Shown here in pieces: positions 6,454-15,034 of a stretch of DNA of 42,444 nucleotides. Source of the stretch: Saprospiraceae bacterium (GTDB taxonomy: Bacteria; Bacteroidota; Bacteroidia; Chitinophagales; Saprospiraceae); assembly GCA_019634275.1 (NCBI GenBank), contig JAHQVP010000354.1, forward strand, positions 1-42,444, read 5' to 3'. Every line of letters starts with the position of its first letter. Position 1 is the stretch's first letter. Under the pieces are notes generated by a model. That model saw only the letters and a list, made by a program, of their open reading frames with translations. It was not told where the DNA came from and did no database searches. The position numbers and the translations under genes are program-made.

Positions 6454-7548
6454 CTAGAGCCCCGGATCTTGAAAATCAGGATTGGTAAGGAATGCCTCAT
6501 CCGTGAGCGTGCCGAGAAAGGACTTGATGGCCTCCAACTGAAGCGGCTCCAGATTGAGCGGTCTCATTAGGGGGTGTCGGTACCGTCCTGCTCCACCTGT
6601 GTTGTAGTGTTCGAGAACTTGGTCGATGTTTTCAAATCGGCCATCATGCATGTAGGGGGCGGTCAATAATACATTGCGCAAAGTGGGTACTTTAAATTTC
6701 CCAAGATCAAGTGCCTCGCCGGTGATTTCGCCACGACCGCCGTCTGCAAATCCCATGGGATCGTTGACATCGTCCAACCCGTTATTTCGAAATTCTTGAA
6801 TGGCAAAGAATGGAGGATTGTGGCAATGGCCACACTCTGCGTCAGGAATATTATCCTCGAGGTCAAAGAAAAGGCTGTAGCCCAGGAATTCTTCATCCGT
6901 AAAATCGTATTCGCCCCGAACCCATCGATCCCATTTTGACGACCCACTGCTCACCAAGGTCCGTTCAAATTGAGCGATGGCTTTGACGGCCAGATCGCGT
7001 GAAATCTCAGATTTGTTCTCAATGCCGAAAGCCGTTCTAAAAAGAGCAGGGTACTCCTCGTCATCTCGGAGCCTCTCTTCTACCTGACTCCAGGTATTGT
7101 GCAGTTCAATTGGATCTTCGATGGGCGCCAGTGCTTGATCCTCCACAGTAGCAAACTTGCCATCCCAATGGAAACCGTGAGGATCAAATCCAATATTGAG
7201 AAGGGATGGTGCGCTGCGCCTACCGGCAAGTCCGTCAATGCCCAGGCTGACGGCCAAGCCATCCGTAAAGCTAAGCTGAGGATCGTGGCAGGAAGCACAT
7301 GACATGGTGAAATCAGCGGAAAGCAATTTATCGAAAAAGATCTTTCTCCCAAGGAGAACACCTTCTTCAGTCAGTGGATTGTCGGATGGAGAGGTCATGG
7401 GAGGAAACTCAGCGGGAACACTGAGGTCCAAAGGAGTTGGGTCATAGCGCAGATCGGTTAGATCTCCATCGGGGTCATCTGGATCACAGCAGGTAAGGAT
7501 AAATCCTGCCAGAAGCAAAGTCAGTACCTGATAAACTTTAGACTGCAT
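6454..7548 (-). CDS. Di-heme cytochrome c peroxidase / MauG-MbnH family lipoprotein (copy 1)
   Basis: Two CXXCH motifs (CASCHD, CGHCHN); KVPTLRNVLLTAPYMHDGRF family motif. Start set at the internal Met (MQSKVYQVLTLLLAGFILTCC, lipobox) rather than 7626, because that gives a signal peptide and lies downstream of a candidate -7 element. Confidence 0.9.
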   Translation of the reverse strand: MQSKVYQVLTLLLAGFILTCCDPDDPDGDLTDLRYDPTPLDLSVPAEFPPMTSPSDNPLTEEGVLLGRKIFFDKLLSADFTMSCASCHDPQLSFTDGLAVSLGIDGLAGRRSAPSLLNIGFDPHGFHWDGKFATVEDQALAPIEDPIELHNTWSQVEERLRDDEEYPALFRTAFGIENKSEISRDLAVKAIAQFERTLVSSGSSKWDRWVRGEYDFTDEEFLGYSLFFDLEDNIPDAECGHCHNPPFFAIQEFRNNGLDDVNDPMGFADGGRGEITGEALDLGKFKVPTLRNVLLTAPYMHDGRFENIDQVLEHYNTGGAGRYRHPLMRPLNLEPLQLEAIKSFLGTLTDEAFLTNPDFQDPGL

Positions 7549-7569
7549 TTGTGGTACAGAATTAAACGA

Positions 7570-7577
7570 AAAAGGTA
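7570..7577 (-). promoter_or_regulatory. Candidate Bacteroidota -7 element (TACCTTTT) for the copy-1 di-heme gene
   Basis: Reverse strand reads TACCTTTT, one mismatch to TAnnTTTG, about 22 nt upstream of the proposed start at 7548. No clear -33 element. Confidence 0.3.
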
Positions 7578-7640
7578 ACCCATTTCGCACATCTTGTTTT
7601 CGGTTTAGCAACAATCGAAAGGGCAAATCGTTTCTAGTAT

Positions 7641-8372
7641 ATGCATAAAACGGTGCTTGTCTTGGCTTTGCTATTTGCGGTCTCAGCCACAGGGTGTCGC
7701 AAAGACATCCCCCTGGAGATCGCGATACAACTTACTTACCAGGGCGAACCACTTGTTTTAGATCAATCCATGGTTTTTCCCGATGGGAAGGCATTTCGCG
7801 TGTTGCGCGTCAGCTTTTACGTATCCGACCTCATGGTAAGTGATGGATCGGAATCGATTCTTTTGAAGGAGGTCGATTTTGTCAATCCCTCGGCCGGTCA
7901 CCTCAGTAGCGAAAGTGCTGCTGGAGGGTATCCCTATATTGAGACCAAGGTTGATTTGGAAACCATCAAGGATGTTTCGTTTAATTTGGGATTGACCGAA
8001 GCACAAAATGAATCGGTTCCCGCTGATTTTTCCACCGATCATCCTCAAAGCAAGCCCGGAGAATATTGGCTGGCGTGGGACAGCTACATTTTTATAAAGA
8101 TTGAGGGTTGGGTGGATTTGGACGATGATGGTGATGCTGAAACAGGGATGAATTTACATCTTGGATCTGACGCAGTAATGCGCCCAATCCAACTGAATGC
8201 AGAGGGTTTGGGTTCTCGCTTAAAACTAGAGGTTGACCTGTATGATGTGTTTAAGCAGGAGCAGGTCTATGATATTGCAGAAAACCCCGGATTGCATTCG
8301 CTCAGTCAATTGCCTGCGGCAGAAGAATTGGCTGATAATTTTTCGAAATCGATAACCATTAAATCTTTATAA
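7641..8372 (+). CDS. MbnP-like lipoprotein 1 (copper-binding-protein family)
   Basis: Lipobox SATGC; FRVLRVSFYVSDL; YWLAWDSYIFIKIEGWVDLDDDG followed by NLHLGS, which resembles the MbnP family core. Confidence 0.78.
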   Translation: MHKTVLVLALLFAVSATGCRKDIPLEIAIQLTYQGEPLVLDQSMVFPDGKAFRVLRVSFYVSDLMVSDGSESILLKEVDFVNPSAGHLSSESAAGGYPYIETKVDLETIKDVSFNLGLTEAQNESVPADFSTDHPQSKPGEYWLAWDSYIFIKIEGWVDLDDDGDAETGMNLHLGSDAVMRPIQLNAEGLGSRLKLEVDLYDVFKQEQVYDIAENPGLHSLSQLPAAEELADNFSKSITIKSL

Positions 8373-8375
8373 CAA

Positions 8376-9113
8376 ATGAAAACAGTGTTTAAGGGATTGT
8401 TAGTTGCCTCCATAGTTCTGGCGATTGGGTGCAACAAAGACAGTGATGATGACGGCCCTGATACCGCCAGTCTAGTGCTTGATTTTTCCTTCAAGTCAGG
8501 AGCGGAGGATGTCGCCTTGGGAGAGACCTATACCATTAATGGTACTGCGATCGATTTTGAAGCAATCAACTACTACGTGGGGGGATTGAAGCTGACCCAG
8601 GAAAATGGCAATACGGTTGATATTGGCAATCAATACCTTTTGGCTGGCATTGGCAATACAGCGTCGTTGCAAGGCACCCTCGAGATCAGTAATTTTTCGG
8701 ATGCTGTATTTTTTGTCGGCGTGGATGAGACCACCAATGCGCAAACAGAGGCCGATTTTACCAGTCGTCCGCCTGGAGACCCCCTTGGCATTCAAGACCC
8801 CGCCATGCACTGGAATTGGATGACCGGGTACAAGTTCTTGCGGATTGATGGGAATGTGGATGTAGATGGAGACGGCACAACAGAGACTCCGGTCGCATAT
8901 CACTTGGGATCTGCTGCGATGTTGAAAAATCTCTCCTTTACGGAGACCATAAGCATAAGCAAAGGCGCAAATACCGTCACTTTCGAACTTGATTTGGCAA
9001 AACTATTTGCCAATGTGGACCTCACGACCGAGCTGGACACTCATACGGGCAATAATCTCCCTTTGGCCGAAAGACTTCGTGACAATCTGGAGCAAGCCCT
9101 GGATCTTAAATGA
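8376..9113 (+). CDS. MbnP-like lipoprotein 2
   Basis: Lipobox VLAIGC; IDFEAINYYVGGLKL; MHWNWMTGYKFLRIDGNVDVDGDG followed by AYHLGS. Same architecture as the preceding gene, from which it is separated by 3 nt. Confidence 0.82.
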   Translation: MKTVFKGLLVASIVLAIGCNKDSDDDGPDTASLVLDFSFKSGAEDVALGETYTINGTAIDFEAINYYVGGLKLTQENGNTVDIGNQYLLAGIGNTASLQGTLEISNFSDAVFFVGVDETTNAQTEADFTSRPPGDPLGIQDPAMHWNWMTGYKFLRIDGNVDVDGDGTTETPVAYHLGSAAMLKNLSFTETISISKGANTVTFELDLAKLFANVDLTTELDTHTGNNLPLAERLRDNLEQALDLK

Positions 9114-9132
9114 TAGGAAATCGCTGGCCAGC

Positions 9133-9930
9133 ATGAAATTACAGAAGACATTTTACGCAACGATTGGTTTGACCCTCTTGCTGACGTCGCTAATGGCACA
9201 GCAAGAGAATGTCACATCGATCAAACCCATTCTGCTAGACCGATCTGTCTTGTCTGGCGTGGGTTTAGAGAAAGTGCCAATCAAGGACGAGCCAGAGAAA
9301 GATTTTTTTCAGAAGAATATCTACCGTGGCAATCAGTTGAGCGTCTACGTGGTCTCTACTGAAACATGGAGCAACAAAATGACGGATTTTCCTTTTGATG
9401 AATTTGTCTACATGTTGCATGGAGAAGCACTGGTGAAACCTTTGGAGGGAAAGGCGCAACTTTTTCATTCCGGTGACTTCTTTTTTGCCCCCAAAGGATT
9501 CACCGGAGAGTGGGATATCAGGGCAGGAAACAATCTGCACTACGAATTATCGATCATTGCTACTAAAAGAGCAAAAGCAGAAGGGGGATCGCATCAGCTC
9601 GGACATAAGTTATTTGATAGGTCGACACTGTCGGGAGCCCACATCGAATTGGATAGCGACAACCGATATGCGGAGGAATTGCACAAAGGGGTGGAATTGA
9701 CGATTGCACTTATGGCGGAAAAACCCACGCAGAGGTTGATCACAGAATCGAAGAATGACCAATTCATTCACTTGCTTTCGGGACAGTTACAGCTGGAAGA
9801 TCCAGAAGGAAGTCAGCACACGTTTTATAGTGGTGATTTTTTGGTAGTTCCTGAGGGATTTCACGGAAAATGGAACAGCCAAGGCCACGGAATCATTAAA
9901 TACTTGTCAGTCGTGAAGAGCGATGCTTGA
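9133..9930 (+). CDS. Secreted double-cupin protein
   Basis: Sec signal MKLQKTFYATIGLTLLLTSLMAQ at the internal Met (the ORF track start at 8989 overlaps the preceding gene). Two cupin-like halves: FDEFVYMLHGEALV...FHSGDFFFAPKGFTGEW and NDQFIHLLSGQLQL...YSGDFLVVPEGFHGKW. Confidence 0.78.
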   Translation: MKLQKTFYATIGLTLLLTSLMAQQENVTSIKPILLDRSVLSGVGLEKVPIKDEPEKDFFQKNIYRGNQLSVYVVSTETWSNKMTDFPFDEFVYMLHGEALVKPLEGKAQLFHSGDFFFAPKGFTGEWDIRAGNNLHYELSIIATKRAKAEGGSHQLGHKLFDRSTLSGAHIELDSDNRYAEELHKGVELTIALMAEKPTQRLITESKNDQFIHLLSGQLQLEDPEGSQHTFYSGDFLVVPEGFHGKWNSQGHGIIKYLSVVKSDA

Positions 9931-9970
9931 GCAAGATATCGTGAGATGACTATTGAAGATTTGATGAATA

Positions 9971-10963
9971 ATGAATTTTAGTCATCGATTTTCACGGAGG
10001 CAAATTTGGATTTATTCCTTGGCATGGTTGCTTGCCGGCTGCTCAGCGCCAGTTTCATCTGATTTTTTTCCATATCATTTTCCTGAAGTAGACATCCCAT
10101 CGGACAATGCTATAACGGATACGAGAGTGGCCTTGGGTGAGCGGTTATTTTTCGACCCACTCCTCTCGGCAGATACCAGCATTTCGTGCGTGCATTGCCA
10201 TCTGCCAGAATACGCCTTTGCCGATACGACCGCCCTTTCCGATGGGGTTGCAGGTGCATTGGGAAAACGGAATGCCCCAAGCCTCTTCAATCGAGCGTAC
10301 CTGGGATTGATCAACAAGGATGGCGGGGTGAAGAATTTGGATCTGCAGGCCCTGGTGCCGATCGAGGATGAGCACGAGATGGCCCTGCCCGTTCTCAAAC
10401 TGCAGGAGCGGCTGCGAAACGACCGCGAATATCAGGAGATGAGCATGCTGGCTTACGGTAGGCAGCCTGATGCATACGTGGTCACGCGAGCACTTGCCTC
10501 CTATGTGCGTACACTGATCAGCGCAGATGCTCCCTATGATCGTCATTTGCAAGGTGATGCCACGGCGCTTGGGGCAGATGCTCAGGCAGGAATGCACTTG
10601 TTTGAGAGTGATCGACTTGGATGCTGCAATTGTCATGCTGGTGTGTTGTTGACCACCCATGATTTTGCGAACAATGGTTTGTACGAACAGTATGCCGACC
10701 GGGGCAGAGGTCTCATAACGATGGACAGCAGCGATTACGGAAAGTTCAGAATCCCCTCGCTACGAAACGTGTCTTTGACGGCTCCGTATATGCACGACGG
10801 GAGCCTGTCCTCTCTGGATGAGGTGATTGATCATTATGCTTTCTTTGCATCTCGACAGGGGAGAGACGATCGGCTGCGCACCTTTGAGTTGACCGCCATG
10901 GAAAGACAGCAATTGAAAGCATTTCTAGATTCCTTAACGGGCAGCACTGACGGAGCGTATTAG
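9971..10963 (+). CDS. Di-heme cytochrome c peroxidase / MauG-MbnH family lipoprotein (copy 2)
   Basis: Two CXXCH motifs (CVHCHL, CCNCHA); KFRIPSLRNVSLTAPYMHDGS; lipobox WLLAGC. Confidence 0.9.
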   Translation: MNFSHRFSRRQIWIYSLAWLLAGCSAPVSSDFFPYHFPEVDIPSDNAITDTRVALGERLFFDPLLSADTSISCVHCHLPEYAFADTTALSDGVAGALGKRNAPSLFNRAYLGLINKDGGVKNLDLQALVPIEDEHEMALPVLKLQERLRNDREYQEMSMLAYGRQPDAYVVTRALASYVRTLISADAPYDRHLQGDATALGADAQAGMHLFESDRLGCCNCHAGVLLTTHDFANNGLYEQYADRGRGLITMDSSDYGKFRIPSLRNVSLTAPYMHDGSLSSLDEVIDHYAFFASRQGRDDRLRTFELTAMERQQLKAFLDSLTGSTDGAY

Positions 10964-11568: not shown

Positions 11569-12768
11569 TTAGACCGAATATTTAGTGGTCATAATCATCA
11601 TGGGTAAGCCATCCAAATCGTGGTAGAATGGATGATATCGATCTGTGTCGTAATGCTTTTCGACATCGACCACTTTGCTCATGCTGGTCACCGTGCTGAT
11701 GGGCACACTCCCGTACTGCCCGTGTTGGAGACACACCAATTTGCCACTTTCGCCATTCTTGATGAGATCAAATGCCAAAGTCCCATAGGCCATTGGTACG
11801 ATGGCGTCCATCGCATCAGGATCTCCACATCGCACCATATAGCCGAGTCGTTGGCTGATGGTATTGATGCGCCTGCCTTTGTTGAATTTAGGTGAAAGCT
11901 CTTTTATTTTGTTTGAGACAAGGTCGCCGATGCCTCCCAATTTGGCATGACCATATGCATCCTTTTCATCATCGGAAAACATCATATCACCTCCGGCAAT
12001 TTGAGCGCCCTCTGATACCAGTACTATCGAATAGTTGCTGGGATTGTCGTAACGATCCTGCACCAACAACTCAGTGAGTTTCTCAATGTCAAACTGATGC
12101 TCAGGAATGACACAGCGATGCGCCGCCCCGGCCATGGTGGGCAGCATGGCGGTGAATCCTGCATATCGGCCAAATACCTCCAAAACGGCGATCCGCTCAT
12201 GCGAACCAACGGAGGTCCGTAAGTTGTTGATCAACGAGATCGTACGCGAGATGCAAGTACTGAATCCTATGCAATAGTCTGTACCCGGTACATCATTGTC
12301 CATTGTCTTTGGAATGGCATTTACTTTGACGCCCTGGTCATTCAGATGTACTGCATAGCTCAGGGTGTCATCTCCTCCCGTGGCAATCAGATGATCAATT
12401 CCAATCCATTCGAGGTTTTTGATCACCTCCGGCGTCAGGTCATTGATTTCATCTTGATAAGTATCCTTCAAGTGTTCTGGGACCATGGCCTTGGCTACCT
12501 TACTTGGCTTCGTCCGGCTGGTATGCAAGAATGTTCCTCCCGTACGCGCCGCCTTATCTACGACTTGCTTGGTTAGTTCGATAAAGTTTGCACTGTTGTC
12601 GTAGTCCTTATCTCGAATCACGTCAATAATACCGCCCCATCCTCTGCGGAGGCCGATGACTTTATATCCTTCACGGACTGCTCTGATGGTTACTGCGCGA
12701 ATTGCTGGATTCAACCCCGGGACATCTCCGCCGCCGGTCAGGATTCCAATCACCCCTTTATTTGCCAT
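11569..12768 (-). CDS. 6-phosphofructokinase with PPi-type donor-site signature
   Basis: GILTGGGDVPGLNPAIR; GGDDT (Asp in place of the ATP-type Gly) and PKTMDND (Lys in place of the ATP-type Gly); VFGRYAGFTA. Confidence 0.9.
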   Translation of the reverse strand: MANKGVIGILTGGGDVPGLNPAIRAVTIRAVREGYKVIGLRRGWGGIIDVIRDKDYDNSANFIELTKQVVDKAARTGGTFLHTSRTKPSKVAKAMVPEHLKDTYQDEINDLTPEVIKNLEWIGIDHLIATGGDDTLSYAVHLNDQGVKVNAIPKTMDNDVPGTDYCIGFSTCISRTISLINNLRTSVGSHERIAVLEVFGRYAGFTAMLPTMAGAAHRCVIPEHQFDIEKLTELLVQDRYDNPSNYSIVLVSEGAQIAGGDMMFSDDEKDAYGHAKLGGIGDLVSNKIKELSPKFNKGRRINTISQRLGYMVRCGDPDAMDAIVPMAYGTLAFDLIKNGESGKLVCLQHGQYGSVPISTVTSMSKVVDVEKHYDTDRYHPFYHDLDGLPMMIMTTKYSV

Positions 12769-12901
12769 GTTTTTGTGTGTTTATGTATTTGCACTAATTT
12801 TCAGAAGGCGTTGAAAGTAATGAAATACATGGATATGCCTATTGCCAAAAAGGCGGAGAATTGCCGTTGAACCGATAAAATAGAAAATCGACTGGGGTTG
12901 C

Positions 12902-13213
12902 CTACCGGACGGATTTCTCCACCCAGGATACGTAACGTTCGTTGCCATCCATCGCCCAATCTACGATACAGGGTACTTCGTAGGGATGAAGTTCAATTAG
13001 GCGGGCGCGGATGCCAGGGATGAGCGTGTTCGTCGTTTTGAGATGCGCAGCGATTTCTTTTTCCTCCTGCATTTGCCCTTCCCATGAATACAGGGAGGAA
13101 ATGGGAAATAGATTTCCACAAGCGATTAATTTTTCTGCCAAAAGCTGTCGGACGATCTCTTTGGCCACCTCCTCACTGGGGAAAGTGACGTACACGATGT
13201 GTACGTTGCTCAA
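12902..13213 (-). CDS. cutA: CutA1-family divalent-cation tolerance protein
   Basis: VHIVYVTFPSEEVAKEIVRQLLAEKLIACGNLFPISSLYSWEG and ELHPYEVPCIVDW. Likely TTG start overlapping the pfkA TGA stop (TTGA). Confidence 0.88.
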   Translation of the reverse strand: MSNVHIVYVTFPSEEVAKEIVRQLLAEKLIACGNLFPISSLYSWEGQMQEEKEIAAHLKTTNTLIPGIRARLIELHPYEVPCIVDWAMDGNERYVSWVEKSVR

Positions 13214-14190
13214 CTTAAGATGCTTGGGAGTGACAAAATGTTGCTGTCTATGGGTTTCAGTTTTTTGATCGCATCCTTCAATGGTACGTAGACCACTTCG
13301 TTGTTTTGGATTCCACACATCACATTGTGATGTCCGTTGAGCAGCCCTTCTACTGCGCCATGTCCCATCCTTGTGGCCAGCACGCGATCCTGTGCCGTGG
13401 GCGATCCCCCACGTTGCAGATGGCCAATGACCGCTACTTTTGTTTCGTACTGGGTGAACTTCTTCTCCACGATCTTGGCGATGCGGTGGGCATTTCCATT
13501 CTCATTGCCTTCGGCCACGATAATAAGTCCAAACAATTTCTTCTTGAGGGCCATCTTTTCCAGTTGGCCCAGCAGCTCATCAACATCAGTCTCCGACTCC
13601 GGGATTAGGATCCCACTCGCTCCGCTACCTAGGCCAGTATACATGGCTATGTATCCTGAATGTCGACCCATTACTTCCACAAAAAATAATCGATTGTGGG
13701 AGTCTGCCGTATCTCGGATTTTGTCCACTGCATCGATGGCCGTATTGACAGCGGTATCGAATCCGATGGTATAGTCGGTTCCAAAGATGTCGTTGTCGAT
13801 CGTGCCGGGGACGCCCATCATCGGAAAGTCAAATTCGGACTGAAAAATCTGCGCACCAGTGAAAGTTCCATTTCCGCCAATGGCAACGACGGCATCGATA
13901 TCATTGGCGATCAGTGTCTGATGTGCCTGTTTTCGACCTGCCTTGTTCATAAATTCCTTACTGCGCGCGGTCTTGAGCGTGGTGCCTCCCTTATGGATGA
14001 TGTTAGCAACATCGCCTTTTTCCAGACGGATTATTTCGCCGTTAATCATCCCCTGGTAGCCATTGTAGATCCCATAGACGTGGAGGTCATGAAAATTGCC
14101 GGTCCGGACTACCGCTCGAATCGCCGCATTCATTCCCGGAGCGTCACCCCCTGAACACAATACTGCAATCCGCTTTATCTTATCTGCCAT
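13210..14190 (-). CDS. pfkA: 6-phosphofructokinase with ATP-type signature
   Basis: IAVLCSGGDAPGMNAAIRAVVR; GGNGT and PGTIDND; EVMGRHSGYIA. Start set at MADKIKRIAVL. Confidence 0.92.
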   Translation of the reverse strand: MADKIKRIAVLCSGGDAPGMNAAIRAVVRTGNFHDLHVYGIYNGYQGMINGEIIRLEKGDVANIIHKGGTTLKTARSKEFMNKAGRKQAHQTLIANDIDAVVAIGGNGTFTGAQIFQSEFDFPMMGVPGTIDNDIFGTDYTIGFDTAVNTAIDAVDKIRDTADSHNRLFFVEVMGRHSGYIAMYTGLGSGASGILIPESETDVDELLGQLEKMALKKKLFGLIIVAEGNENGNAHRIAKIVEKKFTQYETKVAVIGHLQRGGSPTAQDRVLATRMGHGAVEGLLNGHHNVMCGIQNNEVVYVPLKDAIKKLKPIDSNILSLPSILS

Positions 14191-15034
14191 GGTGTTGTGA
14201 TTTTTGATGGTACTTAGCAAGCCCTTCAATGGGCCGACGAACTACCGTACCCAGTGTCAAGCCTGCTGCTCTTAATTGGTCTCGTAAAGAATCGCAAAAA
14301 TAGAAAGCTATCGAACCCACAAAGTGAATTTTATGTAAACTTTTATATCGCAAAAGGTGCGAATGTATAAATTCTTGAAATTCTGTAGCTACTAAGGTTT
14401 TAATGGAGGCATGATCGCGATTCTCAATGGCATGTCGGGCAAAAGATGCAATGAAACGATTTGGAGCGGGATGAGCATAGAGTTGGGGAACCAATTGTTC
14501 GGGCGGGGGAATGACTGTTTTAAGTGTACGATGCAAATCCGGAGGCAATTGCTCATAGTAATAGGCTTTTAACAGTCTTCGACCGATGGATATTCCGGAC
14601 CCTTCGTCCGCCAGGAGATATCCAAGATTGACACCCCTTCCGATGATTTCACCCTGTCTAAATTGGCAGACATTGCTGCCCGTACCAAGAATGGCTACTA
14701 CTCCTTCGTCTACCTCTTCGCCGAACAACGACCTTGCGGCTCCTAAGATGTCTGACCCAACGAATACCGATATGGATCCGGACATCTCGCGAAAGCATGC
14801 CCTGACCCGCTCTATGGCTTCTGGCCCATTCACTCCTGTGCCGTAGTAGTGAATGGCATCAATGCTGTGCTCGGGCAGTGATTTCTCGATAGTCTCGACC
14901 ATACCCAGACCTACAGATTTGTCGTTTGCCGTAGGATTGAAACCACCTGTAGTAAAGTGGTGAATCTCGCCCTTCTGAATTAAAGCCCAATCTGCCGAGG
15001 TCGACCCAATGTCGCCAATGAGGAGCGTCTTCAT
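14180..15034 (-). CDS. BadF/BadG/BcrA/BcrD-family ATPase, N-acetylglucosamine-kinase-like
   Basis: MKTLLIGDIGSTSADWALI phosphate-1 motif; AILGTGSNVCQF; LLADEGSGISIGRRLL. Start set at MKTLLIG; 3' end overlaps the pfkA start by 11 nt. Confidence 0.83.
   Translation of the reverse strand: MKTLLIGDIGSTSADWALIQKGEIHHFTTGGFNPTANDKSVGLGMVETIEKSLPEHSIDAIHYYGTGVNGPEAIERVRACFREMSGSISVFVGSDILGAARSLFGEEVDEGVVAILGTGSNVCQFRQGEIIGRGVNLGYLLADEGSGISIGRRLLKAYYYEQLPPDLHRTLKTVIPPPEQLVPQLYAHPAPNRFIASFARHAIENRDHASIKTLVATEFQEFIHSHLLRYKSLHKIHFVGSIAFYFCDSLRDQLRAAGLTLGTVVRRPIEGLAKYHQKSQHHGR

Follow-up and report, generated by a model that had tools for sequence, protein, structure and literature searches.

The locus described here occupies positions 6,454 to 10,963 of a 42,444-nucleotide stretch of contig JAHQVP010000354.1 (hereafter the window) from a Saprospiraceae bacterium, and it encodes two di-heme enzymes related to MauG and MbnH, two MbnP-type proteins that are candidate partners of these enzymes, and a secreted double-cupin protein. 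The MbnH1 gene (6454..7548, minus strand) diverges from four co-directional genes on the plus strand, namely MbnP1 (7641..8372), MbnP2 (8376..9113), the cupin gene (9133..9930) and MbnH2 (9971..10963), all as laid out in a preliminary description of this DNA. The 92-bp divergent region between MbnH1 and MbnP1 (7549..7640) is presumed to be a shared regulatory region; viewing five such regions, without formal alignment, revealed no obvious conserved operator.

Gene content and conservation of the locus

The open reading frame of MbnH1 extends to a TTG at 7626, upstream of the signal, and the start was placed at the ATG at 7548, where the lipoprotein signal begins. Lipoprotein signals were recognized in the sequences of both enzymes and both MbnPs, and each enzyme carries two CXXCH heme motifs, at residues 84 and 239 of MbnH1 (7285-7299 and 6820-6834) and residues 73 and 218 of MbnH2 (10187-10201 and 10622-10636). 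The Pfam matches agree with the identities first proposed, with both enzymes over the cut-off of CCP_MauG (E=1.9e-52 for MbnH1, 8.2e-43 for MbnH2) and both partners over that of MbnP (PF20243, cut-off 27) at 55.2 bits for MbnP1 (E=1.1e-14) and 93.7 bits for MbnP2 (E=1.8e-26).

The gene order is conserved at 56-64% identity in a genome of the same genus (G001) and in three named metagenome-assembled genomes (MAGs), and therefore is not due to chance. The closest named relatives of MbnH2 come from Saprospiraceae MAGs, consistent with the Bacteroidota host suggested earlier. MbnP1 and MbnP2 are the only MbnPs found in the source assembly (4.29 Mb, 368 contigs, 89.8% complete), which also lacks any PF05114 match; the earlier remark that no methanobactin biosynthesis genes are visible thus extends to the whole assembly as far as MbnB is concerned, and a link to methanobactin was rejected on this basis.

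Di-heme enzymes and the Trp-less MbnH2 clade

Among PDB entries, MbnH (6E1C) matches both enzymes best. Each carries a Tyr at the second axial position (Tyr315 in MbnH1, Tyr289 in MbnH2), aligned with the Tyr of 6E1C and with the Met of 3O5C, a structure of the bacterial cytochrome c peroxidase (bCcP) type. At the inter-heme position, MbnH1 has Trp128 (codon 7165-7167), with Gln at +10, Pro at +14 and Glu at +20, a spacing that we take to be that of MauG Trp93, Gln103, Pro107 and Glu113. MbnH2 retains the Gln, Pro and Glu positions, and the Trp is replaced by Lys116 (codon 10316-10318). Both the axial Tyr and this spacing, together with a clear sequence match, are shared with MauG, which differs in its substrate protein and in possessing the Trp93 for which MbnH2 has no equivalent. 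The signal of MbnH2 contains a Tat-like SRR, which was dropped as a feature of interest because it shows no conservation in the orthologue from G001.

Lack of the inter-heme Trp characterizes a clade. This residue is missing in 86 of 92 MbnH2-clade proteins, where the position is held by Arg (55), Lys (16), Phe (8), Met (4), Ala, Tyr or Thr (1 each), with Trp in the other 6, and it is present in all 74 proteins of the MbnH1 clades H1a and H1b. On a quickly built tree of 226 enzyme sequences, made without bootstraps, the distribution of Trp requires 5 changes versus about 70 when the labels are shuffled, and 6E1C falls closer to MbnH2 than to MbnH1 with moderate support (SH-aLRT, an approximate likelihood ratio test, of 85-92). 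A different MbnH lineage showed two more losses (Arg in L009, Leu in L034). The heme motifs, the peroxide-pocket residues and the axial Tyr are retained in the MbnH2 clade. Most Trp-less enzymes also lie near an MbnP: of 45 from loci retrieved through enzyme similarity alone, 41 have an MbnP and 31 a Trp-bearing enzyme within three genes, and a second set of loci (L155-L194) has an MbnP nearby in 29 of 34 cases. One locus labelled Phycisphaerales (L226, JASGCQ010000067.1) has the MbnP-MbnH2-MbnH1b arrangement typical of Bacteroidota and probably represents a misbinned contig or a transfer.

A natural di-heme enzyme without inter-heme Trp is also known outside the family, in Burkholderia, where BthA has Ser257 at this position and still forms bis-Fe(IV) (PMC6405878); the loss of Trp is therefore no proof of inactivity. 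BthA differs from MbnH2 in that the sequence match is weak and the residue is Ser, whereas the MbnH2 clade typically has Arg or Lys. To our knowledge, BthA has no MbnP partner. Neither a clade of MbnH enzymes lacking this Trp nor the WxxW class of MbnP described below was found to be reported in the literature searched, which did not include the primary MbnH/MbnP papers (2019, 2021), and this result is not proof of novelty.

Two kinds of MbnP partner

MbnP2 carries the canonical motif, M144-H-W146-N-W148, that is, WxW with a preceding Met. A profile of its group (14 relatives), from which its fold was assigned, has MbnP 7L6G as top match (E=2.5e-5), and the alignment places MHWNW against MAWNW and the His of YHxG (His176) against that of HVG. 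Met144, Trp146, Trp148 and His176 are invariant or nearly so among the relatives of MbnP2, and the corresponding residues of 20 other MbnPs from the order show the same conservation. Manesis et al. 2021 reportedly found the leading Trp of WxW to be converted to kynurenine, with Met and His holding copper; Met144 and His176 would thus be the expected metal ligands in MbnP2.

MbnP1 has the same fold and a different motif. Its AlphaFold model, built with 23 sequences, has a mean pLDDT (predicted local distance difference test) of 94.1, and a Foldseek search retrieved only 7L6G from Methylosinus trichosporium (E=7e-8, probability 1.00, TM score 0.62), the next match being at E=0.15. The motif reads EYWLAW, so that Trp143 and Trp146 form WxxW instead of WxW and no Met stands at -2. 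Across the MbnP1 clade, which stands apart from the MbnP2 lineage on the MbnP tree (44 rows, 98*), Trp143, Trp146, Ser148, His173 and His219 are invariant, and the canonical Met position is filled by Glu, His, Tyr or other residues. Because the first Trp sits at the oxidised position, Trp143 may be an enzyme substrate, but these residues suggest a metal site unlike that of a canonical MbnP.

Several variations on MbnP1 were recorded among its relatives. In an orphan MbnP1 of genome G060 (L089:6196-7104), Cys replaces the oxidisable Trp (SEYCADW), yet the genome retains an MbnH1 gene. MbnP1/MbnH1 loci usually hold an additional MbnP-like protein in which the Trp motif is lost (L105:6996-7817, L108:3657-4490 and others) and which has a conserved C-x-x-x-E-G-C-L right after the signal. 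In two genomes, membrane proteins of the HupE/UreJ family adjoin MbnP1 genes (L079:7913-8521, L086:6590-7201), a possible sign of metal transport, for instance of nickel.

Modular organization and proposed enzyme-MbnP pairing

Adjacency of MbnH genes to mbnP is conserved across genomes, and four arrangements recur. The commonest is P(MHWxW)-MbnH2-MbnH1b, with 30 loci in its commonest spelling from Flavobacteriales to Chitinophagales; the others are P(MHWxW)-MbnH2 alone (14 loci), P(WxxW) alone (8 loci) and P(WxxW)-MbnH1a, which occurs in Saprospiraceae, usually with the further degenerate MbnP. In the window, a P(MHWxW)-MbnH2 module is joined to a P(WxxW)-MbnH1a module whose MbnH1a is divergent. 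The resulting composite order, divergent MbnH1 followed by MbnP1-MbnP2-MbnH2, was found in four other genomes, at G001 (L077), L195, L196 and L197. Where MbnH1 is missing from the locus, a strong match (E of 1e-93 or better) is usually present elsewhere in the genome, in 9 of the 10 genomes whose MbnP1 is an orphan and in 5 of 5 with MbnP1-MbnP2-MbnH2. Since the modules split, the genes co-occur in trans and the MbnPs fall into separate clades, MbnH1 would serve MbnP1 and MbnH2 would serve MbnP2. The earlier proposal that each di-heme enzyme is dedicated to one MbnP is therefore supported by sequence comparison for this lineage, but it does not hold in general, as most tandem loci of Bacteroidota have one MbnP and two enzyme types.

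The cupin gene has two Cupin_3 stretches (E=8e-22) and an ordinary signal peptide, and it lies co-directionally between MbnP2 and MbnH2 with gaps of 19 and 40 bp. It had been put forward as a new component of the system, a proposal that the neighbourhood survey contradicts: the gene is missing from all four loci that share this layout, in which MbnP2 and MbnH2 either overlap or, in G001, are separated by 4 bp, and homologues were found in only 7 of the 148 other genomes searched, all in unrelated neighbourhoods. The cupin was thus rejected as a component of the locus and is probably a lineage-specific insertion or passenger. A 570-residue protein of G082 with 34% identity to the cupin is encoded some 6.4 kb away from an MbnP/MbnH1 pair, a proximity regarded as chance.

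Copper context of the neighbouring genes

Searching for copper genes by regular expression gave almost nothing and was replaced by hidden Markov model (HMM) scans of neighbouring genes, with MbnP1/MbnH1 loci as the comparison for tandem loci. The 131 genes flanking tandem MbnP-MbnH2-MbnH1b loci include HYC_CC_PP (11), AraC-type regulators (6), HMA, multicopper oxidase, HMBD and DUF3347 (3 each) and CusB-type HlyD (2). Copper-linked neighbours adjoin these tandem loci and, among the matches listed, not MbnP1/MbnH1 loci, so that a part in copper handling is plausible for enzymes and partners of the MbnH2 type but lacks support for those of the MbnP1/MbnH1 type. The copper-acquisition role suggested earlier for the locus is unproven. 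Within the window, no copper-type neighbour was present among the genes checked next to the locus.

Other neighbours also deserve mention. A secreted protein of about 300-350 residues, which has no Pfam or NCBIfam match and often bears a CDxCGC-like motif at its N terminus (L093:7431-8486, L158:2884-3954, L195:1364-2263 and relatives), is found no more than about 1.6 kb from an MbnP in 9 of the 19 genomes having it; the genome of the window does not have it. It is possibly an outer-membrane metal-handling partner. Directly upstream of it, a secreted protein of about 130-155 residues with a C-x-G-x-C-Y motif was seen, likewise with no family match (L093:8527-8931, L158:2330-2797, L199:4280-4684). 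About 2 kb from the locus, a small CutA-like gene (divalent-cation tolerance, recognized by eye) stands between two phosphofructokinase-like genes (window 11569-14229).

Interpretation of the locus

Taken together, we favour, with some reservation, a reading in which two dedicated maturation pairs, MbnH1/MbnP1 and MbnH2/MbnP2, stand side by side and oxidise Trp for a metal site, with the cupin as a passenger. Each secreted, lipid-anchored di-heme enzyme would use H2O2 to oxidise a Trp of its partner, and the expected product would be kynurenine, as in the methanotroph MbnH/MbnP system, allowing the partner to hold a metal ion. In the MbnH2/MbnP2 pair, because Met-x-Trp-x-Trp and the His are kept, oxidation would be likely to fall on Trp146 and the metal likely to be Cu(I). 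In the MbnH1/MbnP1 pair the oxidisable Trp143 is kept, and because of Trp-x-x-Trp and the Glu in place of Met, the product or the metal site probably differs. The two pairs are therefore not equivalent, MbnP1 being without WxW and its Met and MbnH2 without the inter-heme Trp; MbnH2 would have to work without a Trp relay between its hemes, either through another path or through a different division of labour between them.

Several findings weigh against this reading. All four proteins fall under the NCBIfam cut-offs, the enzymes at 230 bits (MbnH1) and 228 bits (MbnH2) against 362.85 for TIGR04039 and the MbnPs at 19 bits (MbnP1) and 49 bits (MbnP2) against 140 for TIGR04052, so that MbnP family membership, upheld by Pfam, is not upheld by NCBIfam. 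Given the loss of Trp, MbnH2 might not be a Trp-oxidising enzyme at all; its structure model was set aside as too poor (pLDDT 56), and the call at the Trp position consequently rests on alignment to solved relatives. None of the copper families of the tandem loci is among the matches listed for the 78 genes flanking MbnP1/MbnH1a loci (L103-L113, L249-L271), where DnaQ-type exonuclease (16), the flavin transferase ApbE (12), TerC (5) and DoxX (3) were found instead. Finally, strict one-to-one pairing is not universal, since many tandem loci of Bacteroidota have a single MbnP beside both enzyme types.

A bolder version of the two-pair reading, which we advance only tentatively, would see in MbnH2 a large Bacteroidota lineage that oxidises protein Trp with a positive residue instead of a Trp relay, and in MbnH1/MbnP1 a second, non-copper metal site with modified Trp, both fused in the window. 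A little less probable still is joint action of MbnH1 and MbnH2 on the MbnPs, as a heterodimer or in successive steps, with the Trp-bearing enzyme carrying out long-range oxidation and the Trp-less one acting as an accessory or regulatory subunit. This would suit the predominance of the single-MbnP arrangement MbnP-MbnH2-MbnH1b (30 loci, one spelling) and the Trp-bearing enzyme near 31 of 45 Trp-less ones, but about 38 loci have MbnH2 and MbnP without any MbnH1-clade enzyme, and MbnH2 keeps the Gln, Glu and Tyr positions and both heme motifs, unlike a degenerate subunit. That MbnH2 is an ordinary peroxide-reducing di-heme peroxidase, with MbnP2 as electron donor or mere neighbour, appears improbable: its sequence is of bCcP type and the Trp-less BthA turns over peroxide (PMC6405878), yet it has an axial Tyr where bCcPs carry Met, an MbnP is near 41 of the 45 enzymes retrieved by enzyme similarity alone, and the Trp, Met and His of MbnP2 are nearly invariant. 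A single five-gene copper system with the cupin as a functional part, the proposal of the preliminary description, is very hard to credit, as the secretion, co-directional orientation and short gaps of the cupin are outweighed by its absence from the four same-layout loci, with MbnP2 and MbnH2 there 4 bp apart or overlapping, and by the location of the homologues of seven relatives elsewhere.

Relation to known systems and significance

The two-pair reading has its closest precedent in MbnH/MbnP of Methylosinus trichosporium OB3b (6E1C, 7L6G), with which the locus shares the fold of MbnP1, the WxW, Met and His set of MbnP2 and the adjacency of di-heme enzyme and partner genes; 6E1C also gives the top PDB match for each enzyme. 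It differs in having two pairs and no methanobactin gene (MbnB), in the WxxW without Met of MbnP1, in the missing inter-heme Trp of MbnH2 and in the sub-threshold NCBIfam scores. The methanotroph systems CorA/CorB and MopE/SACCP likewise combine a secreted or surface copper protein, in which Trp is converted to kynurenine, with a co-transcribed di-heme peroxidase-like protein (PMC3912023, PMC3423442), and the locus resembles them in its secreted or surface MbnP-type proteins and di-heme peroxidase-like partners. MopE and CorA show no marked sequence similarity to MbnP, and MbnP/MbnH pairs are present far beyond methanobactin producers (PMC3621798).

Arguments on how oxidising equivalents move from heme to heme, and from heme to a distant Trp, in MauG-type enzymes have so far relied mainly on mutants of a single enzyme. 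The more than 80 natural sequences that have no relay Trp and keep the hemes, the peroxide pocket and the partner gene, often beside a Trp-bearing sister, make the question of the relay testable with matched natural enzymes. As judged from its sequences, the MbnH2 clade is a large, overlooked lineage without the Trp thought to wire the two hemes together, and the results suggest that environmental Bacteroidota commonly have metal sites of the kynurenine type, of at least two kinds.

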